A stretch of 64,000 nucleotides of DNA from Rhodobacteraceae bacterium Alg238-R152 (GTDB lineage: Bacteria; Pseudomonadota; Alphaproteobacteria; Rhodobacterales; Rhodobacteraceae), in NCBI GenBank assembly GCA_900537125.1, contig UNRJ01000002.1, forward strand, positions 558,001 to 622,000. Direction: 5' to 3'. The notes beneath the pieces were generated by a model that saw only the letters and a list, made by a program, of their open reading frames with translations, made no database searches and had not been told where the DNA came from. The translations under genes were made by a program, and so were the position numbers. The first letter of the stretch is position 1; every line of letters starts with the position of its first letter. Positions 10,637 through 18,158 of this stretch are shown piece after piece.

Positions 10637-11713
10637 ATGGCGAATTTTGAAACCCAAGTGCGTGAGTCTCAAGCGCAGGTGGCCGAAGCACAAAGTAAGA
10701 TTGCCGAGCTGACCGGGCGCATTGATGCGGCACGGGCGAAGATGAAAACCGGCGACGATATTGCGATCGATATTGAGAACGCAACGTTGGACGACGTACA
10801 CGCGCATACCGACGTGATGAACTCCAACATTGCTGAGCTGATCATGGGGCTGGATGATGTGACATCCGCCTTCTCCAAAGACTTTGACCAGATGCGGGAC
10901 AAGACCGGCTGGGAGAGCTTTGTAGGTGTATTCAGTCGCGGCAAATCTGACTCCATGCGGGCGGAGCGGATCAAGACTGCCAACATTGATGACAAATTGC
11001 AGGACCTAATTGCCAAATCTGATGTGATCACCAAACTTTTGGAGAGTCAGCTGTCTGTGCTCGAAGAGCAAAAGGTCAAAGTAGAGCAAAATCTAACTGA
11101 GACGCTGGATGAGCGTGAATTCACTGTGGGTGAGTTGGAAAGCCTGCGGGCCGAGATCATGGGCATGGATCCCAAGATCATCGAAGTCGAGAACAAGATT
11201 GCGGTGGAGCAGGACGCGGCAGCGCGCACCAAGTTGGAAACCGAACTGGCGGATTTGAACAAATCCTACAACGATTTGGTGCAGCAGGAGCAGGTGAAGC
11301 TTGCGCAGAGCCAAACGCTGGAGCGCTATATCGAGAAGGGCAAAACCTGGGTCGACTCGCTGCAAAACCAGGCGGCGACGCAAATGGTGCTGATCAACAA
11401 GCTGAAGACAGACACCAAGCAGCGCGTGGTGCTCTATGATGCGCTGACCAAATCTTTGAAGACCGCGCAGCAGCAGGATGTGGCCCACCGGATCAATGAG
11501 ATTGGTGTGGAGACCGACAAAGAAGCGCAGGCATCAATGGCGGCGATTGGGACTGCCACCAATCAGAAGATGGCCGACATGATGGAAGCCCATGAGGAGC
11601 ACATGGTGTTTGCCCGCGATGTGTTGGAGGCGAAGGCCAAGGCGGATGAACGCTTTGCGCGGCGGTTCCAGAAGATTGTCGAGAAGCACGATAAGAACCT
11701 GTATGGGGCGTGA
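10637..11713 (+). CDS. Long coiled-coil protein of unknown function, first gene of the AAA+ cluster
   Basis: Not a family I can name with confidence. It has 358 residues, no signal peptide and no membrane segment. It is almost entirely heptad-rich helix: residues 1-35 and about 130-260 are strong coiled coils rich in Glu, Lys, Leu and Gln (LSVLEEQKVKVEQNLTETLD, LETELADLNKSYNDLVQQEQ). A non-coiled patch (GWESFVGVFSRGKSDSM) lies near residue 95. The architecture is loosely like TelA/PspA-type coiled-coil proteins, but no signature supports either. GGGAG precedes the ATG. It is the first of nine same-strand genes to 18158, and its TGA overlaps the next ATG, so it is co-translated with a small membrane protein. 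Confidence 0.75.
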   Translation: MANFETQVRESQAQVAEAQSKIAELTGRIDAARAKMKTGDDIAIDIENATLDDVHAHTDVMNSNIAELIMGLDDVTSAFSKDFDQMRDKTGWESFVGVFSRGKSDSMRAERIKTANIDDKLQDLIAKSDVITKLLESQLSVLEEQKVKVEQNLTETLDEREFTVGELESLRAEIMGMDPKIIEVENKIAVEQDAAARTKLETELADLNKSYNDLVQQEQVKLAQSQTLERYIEKGKTWVDSLQNQAATQMVLINKLKTDTKQRVVLYDALTKSLKTAQQQDVAHRINEIGVETDKEAQASMAAIGTATNQKMADMMEAHEEHMVFARDVLEAKAKADERFARRFQKIVEKHDKNLYGA

Positions 11714-12048
11714 TGTTGTTCGATTTCAAGAACTCAAGTCAGCCTACTAAAATTAATAGCCTCAAAGACCTTGAACCGAAGGCAAAACCAAAATGGTTCA
11801 AAATCTGTTTTTGGGCAGTGTTTTCATGTTTTCCATTTTTAGTCGTCGTGTGGATAGGTAACGTTGTCAATGTGAAGCTGCTACAACTGATTGGCACATT
11901 GGGGTTTTTCGTTGCCTTCACAACTCCATTTGTCGTGCGTTTTGTCCCGCTTTTCCTTCGTGTTCTTAGTTATTGGTGGCCTTGGCTTGGCCTGAAAACT
12001 GCTCAGCTTGATACGTGGTTACAGAACGATTTGGATTTGAGAAGATGA
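11713..12048 (+). CDS. Small two-segment membrane protein in the AAA+ cluster
   Basis: Unrecognised protein of 111 residues. A hydrophilic N-terminal stretch of about 27 residues precedes two membrane segments (ICFWAVFSCFPFLVVVWIG and LIGTLGFFVAFTTPFVV), then a Trp-rich stretch and a charged tail. Its ATG overlaps the stop of the coiled-coil gene (TGATG) and its stop is one base before the next start, so it belongs to the operon. Codon use is distinctly more A+T rich than its neighbours (runs such as ACTAAAATTAATAG), which could mean separate acquisition or relaxed constraint. Confidence 0.68.
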   Translation: MLFDFKNSSQPTKINSLKDLEPKAKPKWFKICFWAVFSCFPFLVVVWIGNVVNVKLLQLIGTLGFFVAFTTPFVVRFVPLFLRVLSYWWPWLGLKTAQLDTWLQNDLDLRR

Positions 12049-12049
12049 A

Positions 12050-13171
12050 ATGAACGACACAACCAAAGACCACACAGCTCTGATGGAGACCCGCGCGTCG
12101 CGGCGGTATTTCCAGAAATTTGAGCGCATTACCGAGCACCTGACACAGGTGGCGGCGGCGCGCGCGGCAGAAGGCGCGATTGGCCAGAACGAAGTGGAAA
12201 TCCTCACGCGCTACTTGGCCTCGATTGGCTACACTTTCAAAGCGCTGAGCATGAAGTACCTGCTGGTTGGGCGGCAAACTGGGCAGTTCTTTGGCAGCCT
12301 CGCGATGGATGCAGTGGAGAGCGGCTTTCCGGTGTTCAATGAGCTCTTGGTCATGGCGAATGATGCGCAGCAAGCCGAAAGCCATTTGCGCAATATGCCA
12401 AGTGCGGAGCAGCTCAAGGATGACATGCTGCGCGGCATTATTGGTGATCGGGAGATCCCCACGAAGCTGCAATTCGCGCTGAGCCAGCGGCTTTATTATG
12501 AGGAGCTTCTCAAGGGCGAGTTGTTTTGGGCGCAGAACCATCCGGAGGTGCGCTGGCAGGGCAATCTGTCGGAGCGGCGGCGCAAGTATTTGGTGCATTG
12601 GGCGGTCTATGACAGTCAGGTGAACCTGCCGACGATCTACCTGATGGACCTTGAGGACACCGGGCGGCGGGCCTTGCCCAAAGATGAACGGCGCTGGCCG
12701 GAGGTGCAGGCCCATCTGATGGGGCAGGCTCTGGGTGGTCTGAAACTGGTGACCATCGCCAAAGGCTTTGACGAGAGCTTTGACGATCTGCATCCCAAAC
12801 GGCTGCGGCGCATTCATGTCGGCCCGATGTATTCGAGCGCTTATACGAAACAGAGCGGGCCAATTCGCGAAGTGCTGGAGGCCGCGCGGGCGCCGGACGG
12901 TGAAGACTGGACGTTGGCTTGGACCACCGAAGATTTGGTGAGTGAGCGGGTGCAGGACGAACGTTCTGGCTGGTTTGGCACGGTAGAGCGTGAAGTGTTT
13001 GCGCTTGACCCGTTTTCCGGACGTGGTGTGGACACCGGCGCGACCAGCATGGAGCGCGCAATCATCCTGCCGCAAAGGCCGTTTCAGGCGCTGGAAGAGC
13101 TCAACCCACCGGGGTTTGGCAGCGTGACGAAATACGTGGTGAGCCCGCAGGGTCGGGTGCTGCGGTATTGA
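12050..13171 (+). CDS. Conserved-looking soluble protein of unknown function in the AAA+ cluster
   Basis: Unrecognised 373-residue protein without signal peptide or membrane segments. The N-terminal 150 residues look helical (FQKFERITEHLTQVAAARAA onward). The C-terminal half looks mixed alpha/beta, with several Trp residues, a WTLAWTTEDLVSER stretch and a basic ending. No catalytic signature was seen. It lies between the small membrane protein and the AAA+ ATPase; the 82-base gap before the ATPase holds a GC palindrome and an ATTTTTGCAAG tail. Position suggests a partner or substrate adaptor of the ATPase; this is inference from context only. Confidence 0.72.
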   Translation: MNDTTKDHTALMETRASRRYFQKFERITEHLTQVAAARAAEGAIGQNEVEILTRYLASIGYTFKALSMKYLLVGRQTGQFFGSLAMDAVESGFPVFNELLVMANDAQQAESHLRNMPSAEQLKDDMLRGIIGDREIPTKLQFALSQRLYYEELLKGELFWAQNHPEVRWQGNLSERRRKYLVHWAVYDSQVNLPTIYLMDLEDTGRRALPKDERRWPEVQAHLMGQALGGLKLVTIAKGFDESFDDLHPKRLRRIHVGPMYSSAYTKQSGPIREVLEAARAPDGEDWTLAWTTEDLVSERVQDERSGWFGTVEREVFALDPFSGRGVDTGATSMERAIILPQRPFQALEELNPPGFGSVTKYVVSPQGRVLRY

Positions 13172-13187
13172 GGGTCCGGGCGTGATC

Positions 13188-13231
13188 GGCCCTGCGGGCC
13201 AAGCCTGCGGCGAGAGTATTTTTGCAAGAAA
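13188..13231 (+). repeat. GC palindrome plus ATATTTG-like tail before the AAA+ gene
   Basis: GGCCCTGCGGGCC (13188-13200) is followed by AAGCCTGCGGCGAGAGTA and TTTTTGCAAGAAAG. It resembles the elements at 928-990 and, inverted, 60190-60223. It occupies most of the 82-base gap between the 373-residue protein and the ATPase and ends just before the ATPase ribosome binding site. Confidence 0.4.
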
Positions 13232-13253
13232 GAATTTTGGGGTGGAGACTTAG

Positions 13254-15194
13254 ATGAGCCTGACAAGTGATCAGATGGAGCTGCGCGAAGAGGATATTCG
13301 CAAGCATTATGACTCGGCCGTGGGGATGCTGGATGGCTTTGATCACACGCCGCGGATTGCCAAAGGTAAGGGCCCTGTGGCCGCGCCGGAACGGTCCAGC
13401 GGTATTAGCACGCGGCGGCGGTTTCGCAGCACCACGCCGGGGTTGGTGACACGCTCAACTGCACGGCCGGAAGGCGTGCATCTGGTGGAGCGTATCGAAG
13501 GCGCGGGTGGGGAAGATCCGCTGGTGTCGCCGGTCCAGGCCAATGTGCTGCATGGGATGCGGCGGGCCTTGGCGATTGCTTTGGCTGTGGGTGAGAATTT
13601 TGCCGAAGCGTCAGGCTTGGCGGATTTGAAGCGGGACAACCTTGCTGGCGCGTTGGGTGCTGATAAGAAGACCGGGTTTTCGGAATTGCTGGCAGCGGAG
13701 GCCTTGGCGGTCTCCTATGTGTTTGCCAATGCAACCTCGTTCCTATTGGCGCCTTTGCTCGGCGAGACGCAGGTTGAGGTGGGCGAAGTTGAAGAGGTTC
13801 TGACCGACAATGCGCAGCTGGCGCTGCATGGCGTGTTGTGGGAGTTGGATCAAGATCTTGCCGTGCTGGTCAGTGACGAGGACCGACTGGTCGCCTGTGT
13901 CTGTGCCTTTGCGGAGCAGTTGATGGAGAAGGTTGCGTTGCGGGCGCAGAACGCGCCGCAGTTGGGGGCTTTTGTGGGCGCGAGTTGGAAGGTGGAAGCA
14001 GATGAGCTGACCATCAACGGGTTTACGCCAGCGCGGGCGGCGAAGGGCTCGACGCTGACCATGACCTTCAAGAAACCCAACGAGGTTGTGGGCAACCACA
14101 TCGCCAAATATCAGGCGATGAAACTCGCAAAGATGCTGATGGCTTATGACTTTGACCGGCGGCTCAATCCGTTTGCAGAGCTGGGCAGGTTCATCTTCAC
14201 TTTCATGGGGGATGGCGCACCGGGCACCGGGAAAACCACGCTTATTCAGATGATGGCAGGGCTGATCAACGACTATTGTCAGGTGGCGGGCTATGCCTTC
14301 CGGTATCAGAACTTTGGCATCGACAATATCGACAGCTATCAGGGTAAGTCGGGGCAGAACGCCAAGGCTTTTGTGCAGAATGTCCTCGATCCGCAGGTGA
14401 TTGGCTTTGGCACGATTGATGACATCGACCAAATTGCGGGCAAACGTGGTGATCGGCAGAGCTCAGCGGGGCAGCAGGAGGTCACAGCGGTGTTTATGGA
14501 GGCCTTTGCCGGTGCCAACACCGTGGTGCGCGGCAACTGTACCTTTGGCATGTTCTCCAACTATCCGGAGAACGTGGACGATGCGCTGCGCCAGCGGGCC
14601 GGGGCGCGGTTCCTGGTGGACGGGCCACAGACACAAGAAGACTACATCGACATTCTCGCGCTTCTGATGGGCAAGAACCACGACATCGCGCTGGGCGATC
14701 ACGCGCTGTTTGAGGCGCAAGCCATTCAGAAAGCTGTGGCGGCGAGTTTTGAGAGCCATTCCAGGCCCCATGAGCCCGGTTTGCTGAACGTCTTTGACAA
14801 GGTGCATGGGCAAGTCGGCGACTTGGATACAATTGCCAAGATGGGCACCTACCTAAAGGCCATTCAGGAGGCCGACCCGCGATTCACCGGGCGGGCAATC
14901 AAAAACATCACCGACGCCGTGAAAGTGCGCGCGATGGATTTTGAACTTCCTGATGAATGGATGGAGCAGCCGGAATTGTTCTTGAAGAAAGACTACGACA
15001 CCAAGGCCGCGATGATCAGCGAGCTGCGGGTGCCGATCACCACCGAGATGGTGGTGCAGGAGATCAACCGCTATGCGGACAGCGAGTTCCGCTATGCCGA
15101 CAAATCTGATGAGGTCGCGATCTCCAATATGGTGCGCGACATGCAACGGTCCGAGGCGGCTAAGCGGCGGTATCTGGAGGGCAAAACCTCGTGA
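13254..15194 (+). CDS. AAA+ ATPase, core of the nine-gene cluster
   Basis: AAA+ family ATPase of 646 residues. The first 300 residues are a specific N-terminal region without a recognised domain. Walker A is GDGAPGTGKTTL (Lys near residue 327). Walker B is FGTIDDIDQIAGKR near 385, resembling the DEID-IAGKR of classic AAA proteins. A sensor-like FSNYPENVDDALRQRAG near 440 carries likely arginine-finger residues, and a helical lid follows. No protease, helicase or HTH domain is attached, which suggests a remodelling machine acting on a partner protein. The final bases overlap the GTG of the next gene (GTGA). Which of the coiled-coil and membrane products is its substrate is unknown. Confidence 0.85.
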   Translation: MSLTSDQMELREEDIRKHYDSAVGMLDGFDHTPRIAKGKGPVAAPERSSGISTRRRFRSTTPGLVTRSTARPEGVHLVERIEGAGGEDPLVSPVQANVLHGMRRALAIALAVGENFAEASGLADLKRDNLAGALGADKKTGFSELLAAEALAVSYVFANATSFLLAPLLGETQVEVGEVEEVLTDNAQLALHGVLWELDQDLAVLVSDEDRLVACVCAFAEQLMEKVALRAQNAPQLGAFVGASWKVEADELTINGFTPARAAKGSTLTMTFKKPNEVVGNHIAKYQAMKLAKMLMAYDFDRRLNPFAELGRFIFTFMGDGAPGTGKTTLIQMMAGLINDYCQVAGYAFRYQNFGIDNIDSYQGKSGQNAKAFVQNVLDPQVIGFGTIDDIDQIAGKRGDRQSSAGQQEVTAVFMEAFAGANTVVRGNCTFGMFSNYPENVDDALRQRAGARFLVDGPQTQEDYIDILALLMGKNHDIALGDHALFEAQAIQKAVAASFESHSRPHEPGLLNVFDKVHGQVGDLDTIAKMGTYLKAIQEADPRFTGRAIKNITDAVKVRAMDFELPDEWMEQPELFLKKDYDTKAAMISELRVPITTEMVVQEINRYADSEFRYADKSDEVAISNMVRDMQRSEAAKRRYLEGKTS

Positions 15195-15571
15195 TCGTGC
15201 TCGACAGCATTGGGTTTGTGAACACGGGACTGCCGTTGATTGTGCTCGGCGTGCTTGCTGTGCTGATCCCGCGGCTTGTGATTGATCGGGAGACGCGGTC
15301 GCATGGTGACGTGTTTCGCGGGATCTGCAGGACAGTGGTATTTCTGCTGAGCGTCGGCTTTTTGATGTCGTATGTGTTGACCTACACGCGTGGCGTGCAT
15401 GCCTTGGCGCTTGGATCGTCACCGGAGCTTGGCACAGCGCTGTGGATGCATTCTCGACTGTCGCTGATGGCAGCGATTGTCTGGGCGCCGATACTGGGGC
15501 TGGTGTGGTTTGGCCAAGCGCAGGGCGTGGAAGCGCGGCGGGGGCAAGATATTGCGGCGGGCGAGAGGTGA
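15191..15571 (+). CDS. Small three-segment membrane protein in the AAA+ cluster
   Basis: Unrecognised protein of 126 residues with three predicted membrane segments (LPLIVLGVLAVLIPRLVI, TVVFLLSVGFLMSYVLTY, LSLMAAIVWAPILGLVWFG) and a short charged tail. The GTG start overlaps the ATPase stop by four bases (GTGA), so translation is coupled to the ATPase. It may anchor the ATPase to the membrane; that is inference from coupling. Confidence 0.7.
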   Translation: MIVLDSIGFVNTGLPLIVLGVLAVLIPRLVIDRETRSHGDVFRGICRTVVFLLSVGFLMSYVLTYTRGVHALALGSSPELGTALWMHSRLSLMAAIVWAPILGLVWFGQAQGVEARRGQDIAAGER

Positions 15572-15573
15572 AG

Positions 15574-15831
15574 ATGTCGTTTCTGTCTTCCAAGAGTTAT
15601 GGCACTCGGCTCAAAACGCTCCTATTGGACGCCGTCATAAGCCTCATCTTGGGCTGCATATTGCTGGTGTTTGCGGACAAGGTCATGGGGCATACTCCCG
15701 AGCCGATCGTCGTTGTCTTAATGTTTTGTGCGATGTGGCTGAAGTTGAGTTTTCCGGTGTTGAAGGCAATTGCGGGCGATGGGGCCCAGTATTGTCGCCG
15801 GGTTTTGGGGAGGCATGGGGGGGATGATTGA
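15574..15831 (+). CDS. Small membrane protein in the AAA+ cluster
   Basis: Unrecognised protein of 85 residues starting at the ATG two bases after the previous stop and preceded by GAGAGG. Two membrane segments are likely (LLLDAVISLILGCILLVFA and EPIVVVLMFCAMWLKLSF), followed by a basic Arg-rich tail. Tight packing supports a real gene, though its small size leaves some doubt. Confidence 0.6.
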   Translation: MSFLSSKSYGTRLKTLLLDAVISLILGCILLVFADKVMGHTPEPIVVVLMFCAMWLKLSFPVLKAIAGDGAQYCRRVLGRHGGDD

Positions 15832-15874
15832 GATGTTGGAATTTTGTAATGCTGAGTGGCTTGGGAGTGAATAA

Positions 15875-17224
15875 ATGCATAGATTGATCCAACGCGGCTT
15901 GATGTTCGGCAACTTGATTGAGGTGGCCTCACCGGTATTGGTAGAGCGCTATAACCGCGCGCTCAAACATCTGACGGGCAAGGCCACCAGCCTCACCGAT
16001 TTTCACATCGACATTTCAGGATATTCGCCGGAGATTGGCGATGAGCTCGACGATCATCTCTACCTCAACCACGGTGGCTGTAACCGGCAGTTCATCCTGC
16101 TGACCACGGATCAGAAATCCGCGCCGCTGCTCAATATCAAGTTCTCTACCAGCCGCGATATCCTGCGGCATTTCATTGAGGAAAACGAGCCGCAGCTCTT
16201 TGCCCTGACCGCGCGGGATGCGGTGGCGGGCGAGTTGGTGAACTCGGTGTTTTCGGTGAGTCAGCCCAGCAAGCTGATGGACATTCGCAAGGTCTCCATT
16301 GAAGCCGACACTACTGAGGGCACGCTGCGCGATGCGCAGAAGCTGGGCGCGTTGGCGGATCGGTTTAAGCAGGAGGAAGACGGCTGGTTTGATGATGTGC
16401 TGATAGCCAACATGATCACGCTCGCGAAACGCACCGGTGATGTGACGCGCAATCCGGTGACGCTCAAGCACATGGGGTTTGATCAGCAGGATTTCTGGAC
16501 CGCACATTTTGGCGGGGTGTATCTGTTCCGAGGTTTGTCACATCCAGCGGTAATCACGGCGGGCGACAAGGCGGAGCTGGGCAAGTTGCCGATCAAGTAC
16601 ACGTTTGATTTCAAAGATCGAAATCAGATTGCGAAGTTTCTGGATTACAACGATCTGGCTGAGCCAATTGTGAAAGCGCGGGGCGTAGATGGCACAGCTA
16701 TTTTGCGCCAGAAGATGGACTTTATCGTTGTGGATGCCGCGCAAGACGCGGGTGTGGACCTGACTGGGGCGACGCGCAGTGATATTCGCCGCCTGGCGCG
16801 CAACCATGCGGATAAACTGCCACCCGAGTACCACGAGCTGCGCAAGATGGTAGATTGGGCCGAAAGTGACGGAAAATGGCCCAAGATCACAAGCGATCAT
16901 CCGGCGTATTTTTACACGTTGCGCGCCACGGACACGGATCACCGTGATCTGGTGAACATGCTGTTGGCCGAGCTGGCGCCCAAGGACATTCGGCAGCTGT
17001 TTATCTGCCACAAAGAGGTGTTCTACCGGCTCTATCAAGGCTGGTCGGAGACCAAGAAGAGCTTTGTGGCGGATTTTTTGGAGCGGGAGTATCAGGTCGA
17101 CAAGGCGGGGGCGCGGGAGGCGTTGTTTGGCTTTGACGCGCCGCTGGAGATGCCACGTGTGACGCGCAAGGTATCTGAGGATATGATTTCACGGGTTGGC
17201 CCGTGGGGCGCGGTGAGGAGGTAG
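15875..17224 (+). CDS. Protein of unknown function in the AAA+ cluster (449 aa)
   Basis: Unrecognised soluble-looking protein of 449 residues with no signal peptide or membrane segment. It contains a region rich in ordinary alpha/beta character (FHIDISGYSPEIGDELDDHL, a conserved-looking LNHGGCNRQFILLTT) and a helical C-terminus. Possible landmarks are HGGCNRQF near residue 65 and FICHKEVFYRLYQGW near 375, but I cannot assign catalytic roles. TTGGGAG precedes the ATG. It lies 43 bases after a small membrane protein and four bases before another, so it belongs to the cluster. Confidence 0.72.
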   Translation: MHRLIQRGLMFGNLIEVASPVLVERYNRALKHLTGKATSLTDFHIDISGYSPEIGDELDDHLYLNHGGCNRQFILLTTDQKSAPLLNIKFSTSRDILRHFIEENEPQLFALTARDAVAGELVNSVFSVSQPSKLMDIRKVSIEADTTEGTLRDAQKLGALADRFKQEEDGWFDDVLIANMITLAKRTGDVTRNPVTLKHMGFDQQDFWTAHFGGVYLFRGLSHPAVITAGDKAELGKLPIKYTFDFKDRNQIAKFLDYNDLAEPIVKARGVDGTAILRQKMDFIVVDAAQDAGVDLTGATRSDIRRLARNHADKLPPEYHELRKMVDWAESDGKWPKITSDHPAYFYTLRATDTDHRDLVNMLLAELAPKDIRQLFICHKEVFYRLYQGWSETKKSFVADFLEREYQVDKAGAREALFGFDAPLEMPRVTRKVSEDMISRVGPWGAVRR

Positions 17225-17227
17225 AGC

Positions 17228-17494
17228 ATGTTTGCATTGGCGAGATTGTCGGTTGTGGGCTTCGTTGTGCTCACCATTGTCTACGTTTGTCTGTCGCTCT
17301 ATTCGCGCTCCAAGCGGCGCGACAAGCTGGAAGCGGAATGGGATCGCGAAGGCATGAGCGGTGATCGGGATGCCTTTATCGAGCAAGGGTTGCAGGACTA
17401 TGATGGCTCTTTGCGTCGCAAATTGATTTGGGGTGTTTATATCATCCCTGTGACCATCGTGATCGCTTTGATCTACTTTATGAATTTCCACTAG
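17228..17494 (+). CDS. Small two-segment membrane protein upstream of DUF1523
   Basis: Protein of 88 residues with an N-terminal membrane segment (LSVVGFVVLTIVYVCLSLY), a charged cytoplasmic-looking middle (SKRRDKLEAEWDREG...GDRDAFIEQGL) and a C-terminal membrane segment (LIWGVYIIPVTIVIALIYF). It starts four bases after the 449-residue protein and ends 13 bases before the DUF1523 gene. Its hairpin topology suggests a membrane scaffold or subunit for the DUF1523 protein. Function unknown. Confidence 0.7.
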   Translation: MFALARLSVVGFVVLTIVYVCLSLYSRSKRRDKLEAEWDREGMSGDRDAFIEQGLQDYDGSLRRKLIWGVYIIPVTIVIALIYFMNFH

Positions 17495-17507
17495 GGGGAC
17501 CAAAGAC

Positions 17508-18158
17508 ATGGTCTATATGAAATGGGGTTTCTGGACGCTGTTCTGGCTATTTGTGGCGGCGTTCTTTCACTACACGCTGCCGCAGCATGATGTGGTGCGG
17601 GTCACCGACACCTATGAGAAGCGGATTGATTTTGGCGAGAATTCGATATTCTGGGCCAAAGAAGACAGCGGTAACGCAACCGGCAATGTGAACCGGGATG
17701 TGTTTTTCATCCAGACCAAGTTTCCAAATGAAAAGGTGATGGTCTACCGCAATGAGGATACGTCGGCTGGCTGGCCGCCGTATTTCAAGTTCGACACCGC
17801 CAATTTGCAGGCGGAAGCTGCGGACATGAAATCCAGCGCTGCTGACCCGCAATGGGTGGCTGTGAAACACTATGGCTGGCGCAACGAATTCCTATCGATT
17901 TACCCAAATGCCGTAGGTGTGAAGGCGGTGGACAGCCCGGATGCGACGTTCATTCCATGGTTGAACATCCTGATCCTGACAGTGTTTTTCGCAATTGTTT
18001 GGGCGGTTTACGTGCGTTGGCGCCGGTTCCGCCAGGCGCGGATTGATCCGGTTTTGGAAGACATGGGCGACAGCTTTGAAGCTGCTGGGGACAATCTGGC
18101 AGAGAAGCGGGGGCGGTTCCGCGCCTGGCTCGACACCTGGCGCGGGAAGGCGCGCTAA
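17508..18158 (+). CDS. DUF1523 family membrane protein, last gene of the AAA+ cluster
   Basis: Protein of 216 residues that I recognise as DUF1523, an uncharacterised family frequent in Rhodobacteraceae. An N-terminal membrane segment (FWTLFWLFVAAFFHYTL) precedes a domain of about 120 residues likely exposed to the periplasm (QHDVVRVTDTYEKR, ...RDVFFIQTKF, YGWRNEFLSIYPNAVGVK). A second membrane segment (WLNILILTVFFAIVWAVYV) and an Arg-rich cytoplasmic tail follow. A GGGGG-type ribosome binding site precedes the ATG. Its stop overlaps the convergent soeC stop by four bases, which marks the end of the cluster. Confidence 0.8.
   Translation: MVYMKWGFWTLFWLFVAAFFHYTLPQHDVVRVTDTYEKRIDFGENSIFWAKEDSGNATGNVNRDVFFIQTKFPNEKVMVYRNEDTSAGWPPYFKFDTANLQAEAADMKSSAADPQWVAVKHYGWRNEFLSIYPNAVGVKAVDSPDATFIPWLNILILTVFFAIVWAVYVRWRRFRQARIDPVLEDMGDSFEAAGDNLAEKRGRFRAWLDTWRGKAR

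Follow-up and report, generated by a model that had tools for sequence, protein, structure and literature searches.

Do the nine genes that lie together on the + strand at positions 10637-18158 of a 64,000-nucleotide stretch of Rhodobacteraceae bacterium Alg238-R152 (contig UNRJ01000002.1; the whole stretch is called the window below) form a single unit, and what might such a unit do? The genes encode an AAA ATPase, a coiled-coil protein, several small membrane-type proteins and members of two named families of domains of unknown function (DUF), DUF6638 and DUF1523. The original prediction regarded them as one cluster, in which the ATPase might remodel the coiled coil at a membrane platform made by the small proteins. 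Comparison with related loci gives a different answer. The nine genes are not one unit; they consist of a fixed core with cargo in two slots, and genes 2, 5 and 6 are the variable cargo.

A fixed core and two variable slots

The comparison rests on 146 gathered ATPase loci, of which 139 are distinct after removal of seven duplicates; the duplicates are still inside counts given over 146 loci, inside the start-triplet, Shimia-pair and cargo GC counts, inside the locus count for the family of gene 2 and inside the breakdown of loci with both slots short, and kinship among genomes is left uncorrected in the slot, family and shuffle counts. The fixed core comprises the coiled-coil protein, a 373-amino-acid (aa) protein, the AAA ATPase and the DUF6638 protein, and most gathered loci also carry the small gene tm88 and a DUF1523 gene. 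All four core genes are present in 129 of the 139 distinct loci, and their order is identical in 129/129. Slot A runs from the coiled-coil gene to the 373-aa gene and slot B from the ATPase gene to the DUF6638 gene, and the contents of both vary from species to species.

Slot B exceeds 140 bp in 103/133 distinct loci and slot A in 67/133. The 234 open reading frames (ORFs) that make up the cargo fall into 125 families (phmmer, 1e-4). Thirty-two families occur in at least two loci, and these are largely faithful to position: 15 are found in slot A only, 15 in slot B only, one in the gap between DUF6638 and DUF1523, and one in both A and B. Among 29 pairs of Shimia loci with ATPase identity of at least 95%, an identical family set was seen in slot B in two pairs and in slot A in two pairs.

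Cargo genes often begin on the stop codon of the preceding core gene. Of the 103 occupied B slots, 63 contain an ORF of 45 codons or more whose start lies exactly on the ATPase stop codon, against 19.7 expected by shuffling, and 28 of the 67 occupied A slots contain one that starts at the 4-bp overlap, against 10.3. The null keeps the stop context of each slot and its first-order composition during shuffling, and ORFs with these starts are longer than it predicts by chance. At the upstream stop of slot A, a start triplet is commoner in occupied slots (45/71) than in short ones (16/69). The guanine-plus-cytosine (GC) content of cargo averages 0.05 below the value for the accompanying core, being lower in 54/76 and 97/144 ORFs; in the window, gene 2 has a GC content of 41.9%, compared with 54-60% for the core genes, and gene 5 has 60.4%.

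The slots exchange their genes much more rapidly than the core does, and it is well supported that the locus is built from a fixed core and two position-specific hypervariable slots with frequent start/stop overlap. Swapping of effectors around a constant core is a known concept; new here is the hypervariability of slots A and B despite their conserved flanking core genes.

The nine genes of the window are arranged as follows, where peaks are membrane-type hydropathy peaks.

10637..11713, + strand: core gene 1, coiled-coil protein, 358 aa; no Pfam family above cut-off, no peaks
11710..12048, + strand: gene 2, slot A cargo, 112 aa; two peaks; start overlaps the stop of gene 1
12050..13171, + strand: gene 3 (core gene 2), 373-aa protein; no Pfam family; AlphaFold2 model
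13254..15194, + strand: gene 4 (core gene 3), AAA ATPase, 646 aa; Walker A GAPGTGKTT, Walker B DDID, pore loop YQGKS (Y362)
15191..15571, + strand: gene 5, first gene of slot B cargo, 126 aa, family F0; three peaks; start overlaps the ATPase stop
15574..15831, + strand: gene 6, second gene of slot B cargo, 85 aa; two peaks
15875..17224, + strand: gene 7 (core gene 4), DUF6638 protein, 449 aa; Pfam DUF6638; no peaks
17228..17494, + strand: gene 8, tm88, 88 aa; two peaks
17508..18158, + strand: gene 9, DUF1523 protein, 216 aa; Pfam DUF1523; one peak

Membrane-segment counts are given as hydropathy peaks only, and the ATPase itself also has one such peak. The 85-aa form of gene 6 follows from the chosen ATG start at 15574; the mechanical ORF list has a 129-aa form from an upstream GTG.

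Much of the original description of these nine same-strand genes is borne out. It had described them as joined by overlaps or short gaps, and the stop/start overlaps GTGATG at 11710 (genes 1/2) and GTGA at 15191 (genes 4/5) are present, as are spacers of two bases between genes 5/6 and 13 bases between genes 8/9. Genes 2/3 are separated by one base. The spacer between genes 7/8 is three bases, and two gaps are longer, with 82 bases upstream of the ATPase and 43 upstream of DUF6638. The four small genes had been called multi-pass membrane proteins, in keeping with their two, three, two and two peaks, and the DUF1523 identity of the last gene is confirmed by Pfam (1.3e-68). The 449-aa protein had been called unrecognised; it belongs to DUF6638 (2e-245), a named family itself without an assigned function. 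Six of the nine proteins, all except the ATPase, DUF6638 and DUF1523, match no Pfam family above cut-off, and NCBIfam and PADLOC scans of the nine added nothing convincing.

The proposed unity of the cluster holds in part: the core co-travels in other genomes, but genes 2, 5 and 6 are exchanged. A fixed membrane platform is not supported, with genes 2, 5 and 6 lying in swapped slots and tm88 not found in four groups of loci.

Proteins encoded by the cargo

Cargo consists mostly of small membrane-type proteins, together with a few of AbiJ, putAbiC, Mrr-N or DUF559 type. A membrane-type hydropathy peak is present in an ORF of 82 of the 103 occupied B slots and 54 of the 67 occupied A slots. The ORF calls are mechanical and may include some spurious short ORFs. 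The scans drew on 211 non-identical ORFs, 118 of which were at least 60 aa long and near the upstream stop; 71 entered the slot B set, 33 the slot A set, and 14 were excluded (short, low-complexity or from one-flank loci). With window gene 5, window gene 2 and the DUF559 gene annotated in Sinorhizobium added, the sets came to 73 proteins for slot B and 34 for slot A.

The 73 slot B proteins matched 12 Pfam families in total at E 0.01, most proteins matching none. The matches include AbiJ_NTD4 (two proteins), putAbiC, a putative phage abortive infection protein (one), Mrr_N (one) and the DUF559 endonuclease (one), as well as DUF3825 (one) and a histidine-kinase-like ATPase (two, weak). PADLOC added one weak HEPN-type match and one AbiP match. 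The slot A set of 34 yielded matches to DUF4279 and, weakly, to MARVEL.

Individual cargo families differ widely in their spread. F0, the family of window gene 5, occurs in 31 of the 139 distinct loci; of its 13 places across 149 genomes, 10 adjoin the ATPase, and so do four of the six of family F1. The family of window gene 2 is present in three loci, the window included, and for window gene 6, comparison with the other slot ORFs gave no relative. Some single cargo proteins also have relatives on plasmids other than the 10 that bear the ATPase; for one cargo type, no plasmid relative was found. In Sinorhizobium meliloti, a DUF559 endonuclease gene and, in opposite orientation, an IS4-like transposase gene occupy slot B (L162:12106-13851), and the DUF559 gene starts 188 bases past the ATPase stop, not at an overlap.

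Spread and proteins of the core

The core is found in alpha- and gammaproteobacteria, and is kept as a unit. The ATPase is present in 23/25 Shimia genomes, in 63/149 genomes taken one per genus of the family and in 5/289 genomes across the class (the window genome counted in each), and DUF6638 in 20/299 genomes of the phylum. At least 562 relatives were confirmed in GTDB. The closest named homologues of the window ATPase and coiled coil are from Shimia, which makes the genome Shimia-type; within that genus, the coiled coil, ATPase and DUF6638 are 77-99% identical to the window proteins. Beyond the family, the core extends to Rhizobiaceae, to Vibrio and to one 359-kb contig filed as viral.

In 20/20 loci from ATPase-bearing genomes, the coiled coil, 373-aa protein, ATPase, DUF6638 and DUF1523 share one order and strand (L042 with broken matches). 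These five genes are likewise in order in 72 of 80 named GTDB loci; the remaining eight are cut contigs, a locus with a gap of N (L089), or the ATPase alone (L061). One or more core genes are missing from 10 of the 139 distinct loci, and eight of these 10 are at contig ends, cut short or N-gapped (L071, L077, L086, L089, L111, L207, L216, L219). Of the other two, L217 has no DUF6638 within the fetched stretch, and L061 carries the ATPase alone. The lone L061 ATPase (L061:9980-11914), on a metagenome contig, is 75% identical, with the other core genes absent within 10 kb on each side. The conserved order in other genomes indicates that the grouping is not due to chance, for the core only.

The genes that follow the core are less constant. 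DUF1523 is present in 132/146 loci and tm88 in 124/146; no tm88 was found in loci from Stappiaceae, Rhizobiaceae, Vibrio and Aestuariispira. In Sinorhizobium and Shinella, DUF2333 comes after DUF6638 in place of DUF1523, and the Sinorhizobium order is coiled coil, 373-like gene, ATPase, DUF559 gene, IS4-like transposase gene, DUF6638 and DUF2333. In one Rhizobium locus (L165), the four core genes are present and neither DUF1523 nor DUF2333 was detected. Vibrio megaplasmids also carry the four core genes, and DUF1523, tm88 and DUF2333 were not found on them. Both Vibrio megaplasmids encode a 279-aa protein upstream of the coiled coil (L163:6516-7355, L166:6518-7357; 94% identical, no Pfam family), which is perhaps a further partner. 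The five genes from coiled coil to DUF1523 are closely packed in three of the four Stappiaceae loci listed (L102, L110, L128), with gaps of -4 to 10 bases; the gap of -238 in the fourth (L104) is an artefact of taking the longest ORF. Two records titled Halomonas, a gammaproteobacterium (L087 and L090), carry the core, and the ATPase of L087 is 76% identical to that of the window; a recent transfer or a mislabelled record is possible.

A pattern search of the viral collection yielded one relative, on the 359-kb contig filed as viral in IMG/VR. This locus (L231:2-6211) has the four core genes, the coiled coil being cut by the end of the locus, with an ATPase 47% identical, and small ORFs lie between its 373-like and ATPase genes. 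The contig has a short match above cut-off to the Gp23 capsid protein (41 of 376 positions), no Terminase_6N match and no match to the T4-type portal, for which the model was also silent in all controls. A query of 50,697 phage records with the ATPase of this contig found no relative. The viral nature of the contig is probable at best.

The window ATPase matches Pfam AAA (PF00004) over residues 321-454 with E 8.7e-12 (46.1 bits against a cut-off of 21.2), in agreement with the Walker A motif predicted near residue 321. Walker A PGTGKT is present in 146/146 loci, and Walker B, as (I/V)DDID or IDDVD, in 137/146, with the pattern not found in nine; profile alignments show Asp at the usual Glu position of Walker B in nearly all loci. 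The loop YQGKS is present in 145/146 loci and aligns opposite the YxG pore loops of the i-AAA protease and proteasomal Rpt4. The N-terminal part of the ATPase, about 290 residues, has no Pfam match at E up to 1 (MIT domain included). The combination of Walker A, DDID and an aromatic pore loop fits a ring that threads a protein, and these features of a threading AAA motor uphold the remodelling type assigned to the ATPase by the original prediction.

The coiled-coil protein is 43-80% identical to its 50 homologues, with a mean column identity of 77% and a near-invariant C-terminal end. Such conservation is expected if the ATPase recognises that end, and on sequence grounds the coiled coil is a candidate threading substrate. 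Structure predictions were made for the 373-aa protein and DUF6638. The AlphaFold2 model of the 373-aa protein is confident (predicted local distance difference test score 91.8), with a helical N-terminal part and a beta-rich C-terminal part, and it has no Foldseek match in the PDB at E 0.001. Urate oxidase, GTP cyclohydrolase and QueF, which presumably share the fold named T-fold, were considered as matches and rejected; all had Z < 5, below the level that tells a fold, and no enzyme function is implied. No mention of DUF6638 was found in the open-licence literature searched, where DUF1523 occurs in four papers and DUF2333 in one.

CBASS (cyclic oligonucleotide-based antiphage signalling systems) and Lamassu are defence systems with a common core and varied effectors, and some CBASS types include a TRIP13-like AAA protein. 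The locus resembles both in joining a constant part to exchangeable effector genes with membrane, nuclease and Abi-type cargo, and resembles some CBASS in the weak PADLOC match of its ATPase to TRIP13 (1.8e-4). Unlike CBASS, it has no match to a CD-NTase cyclase in its nine proteins (Pfam, NCBIfam and PADLOC, E up to 1). Unlike Lamassu, with its SMC-type ATPase LmuB, its coiled coil has no ATPase match, and its match to LmuB reaches only E 0.14-0.17. It differs from both in its two internal, position-specific slots and in an ATPase that is near-universal in the genus.

The coiled coil is also similar in length to TelA (PF05816, toxic anion resistance proteins), with weak profile similarity. 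It differs from TelA in having other partners and no Pfam TelA match (E up to 1 or 10); for the other 50 coiled-coil members, the TelA check covered the best 25 of 98 families. A true TelA gene lies elsewhere in the window genome (L143:1438-3551), beside a gene that is presumably XpaC-like. The familiar features of ESCRT-III/Vps4 offer a further comparison, because here too a coiled-coil partner adjoins an AAA protein with an aromatic pore loop. The match of the ATPase to Vps4 is weak (E 0.004), however, the locus has extra conserved proteins, and the likeness of the coiled coils is by analogy. Clustering of defence genes at fixed genome places is described for the core defence hotspots of Pseudomonas aeruginosa (PMC10250203); unlike those, the places here are two internal junctions of a single operon, which have slot-specific families and frequent translational overlap. 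No published system of this design was recognised in those parts of the open-licence literature that the search covered.

Competing explanations

The best reading, tentatively held, takes the locus to encode a pore-loop AAA machine that acts with exchangeable executor proteins in a response to conflict or in defence. The ATPase would form a ring whose pore threads a partner; the likeliest partner is the coiled coil, with its highly conserved C-terminal end. The 373-aa protein and DUF6638 may act as adaptors, and the membrane partner, which is DUF1523 or, in Sinorhizobium and Shinella, DUF2333, may anchor or sense. The cargo proteins, small and membrane-type or in some cases nuclease-like or of abortive-infection type, would be exchangeable executors, which the core might restrain, or trigger under a threat such as phage infection. 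A more specific form of this proposal, possible but rather doubtful, is an undescribed modular conflict system in which an AAA/coiled-coil transducer core would arm or release swappable effectors co-translated from the two position-specific slots; the membrane-, RNA- or DNA-attacking executors would differ by species, and the core may also have been taken over by one large phage-like genome for purposes of its own. The parts list of the locus recurs in none of the known systems compared with it.

Defence was one option offered by the original prediction, and the AbiJ, putAbiC, Mrr_N and DUF559 cargo types give it some support. Several observations weigh against the preferred reading. The PADLOC tally is not enriched in cargo (nine families in 73 proteins, against 23 families in 72 flanking ORFs, many of the 23 being related CARF and Csa3 models); 73 flanking ORFs had been drawn, and one was left out with the N-gapped locus L089. 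In Pfam, the same flank control has no Abi-type family among the best 25 of 96. PADLOC matches of the nine window proteins are weak only, TRIP13 being the best, the genomic flanks of the locus look ordinary, and the core is also present on the contig filed as viral. The core evolves slowly. Its ATPase is near-universal in Shimia, which sets it apart from many defence systems. Both slots are short in 23/129 distinct loci, among them three Shimia, both Vibrio, four Stappiaceae and one Halomonas, which indicates that the cargo is optional. At the upstream stop of slot B, a start triplet is equally common in occupied (82/109) and short slots (22/31), and 19 of the 29 close Shimia pairs still have at least one slot B family in common (8/29 for slot A). 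Some of these observations suit the chief alternative, which has a substantial chance of being correct without being the one preferred: a housekeeping or stress operon whose core has a job unrelated to the cargo, the two junctions being landing sites for accessory, partly defence-type genes that gain expression via stop-codon overlap. The near-universal ATPase beside loci with both slots short, and the unenriched PADLOC tally, fit such an operon, as do the lower GC content of cargo, its many unrelated types, and the relatives of some on plasmids outside the 10 with the ATPase. A mere landing site does not predict the slot-faithful families, however, and F0 and F1 are found mainly next to this ATPase.

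A machine for membrane remodelling or envelope stress in the style of TelA or ESCRT-III/Vps4, in which the ATPase would disassemble a coiled-coil polymer at the inner membrane and the small membrane proteins would tune it, is unlikely. It would accommodate the pairing of a coiled coil with a pore-loop AAA protein, the membrane partners DUF1523 or DUF2333, and the fidgetin-like and Vps4 AAA proteins among the weak PDB matches of the ATPase. Profile comparison of the coiled coil with TelA (hhalign probability 34% and 31%, no control) points weakly the same way, but such comparisons of coiled coils are prone to false similarity, the window coiled coil lacks the TelA family match noted above, and the 373-aa protein, DUF6638 and swapped cargo are left unexplained. 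By count of locus tags, SMc02733 is presumably the Sinorhizobium ATPase gene. One report (PMC3687685) assigns a ChvI-bound Sinorhizobium fragment to SMc02733, which would also favour a remodelling or envelope-stress role. Very improbable is a mobile-element module, in which phages or megaplasmids would have spread a core that serves them, for example in inter-element competition. The core genes and short capsid match of the 359-kb contig, the Vibrio copies on 0.9-Mb plasmids and the identity of the Halomonas-titled ATPase to that of the window are consistent with such a module; against it stand the single relative in the viral collection, the absence of relatives among the phage records, and the lack of terminase or portal matches on the contig, with the proviso given for the portal model.

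The four-protein set combines an order that is constant in 129 complete loci with gene swaps even between species that share at least 95% identity in the ATPase. Should these exchanged genes prove to be effectors, the locus would represent a new build for an adaptable immune or stress response, and would make uncharacterised effectors available at one fixed address. If the core is instead a housekeeping one, the locus would show how accessory genes lodge inside a conserved operon via stop-codon overlap.

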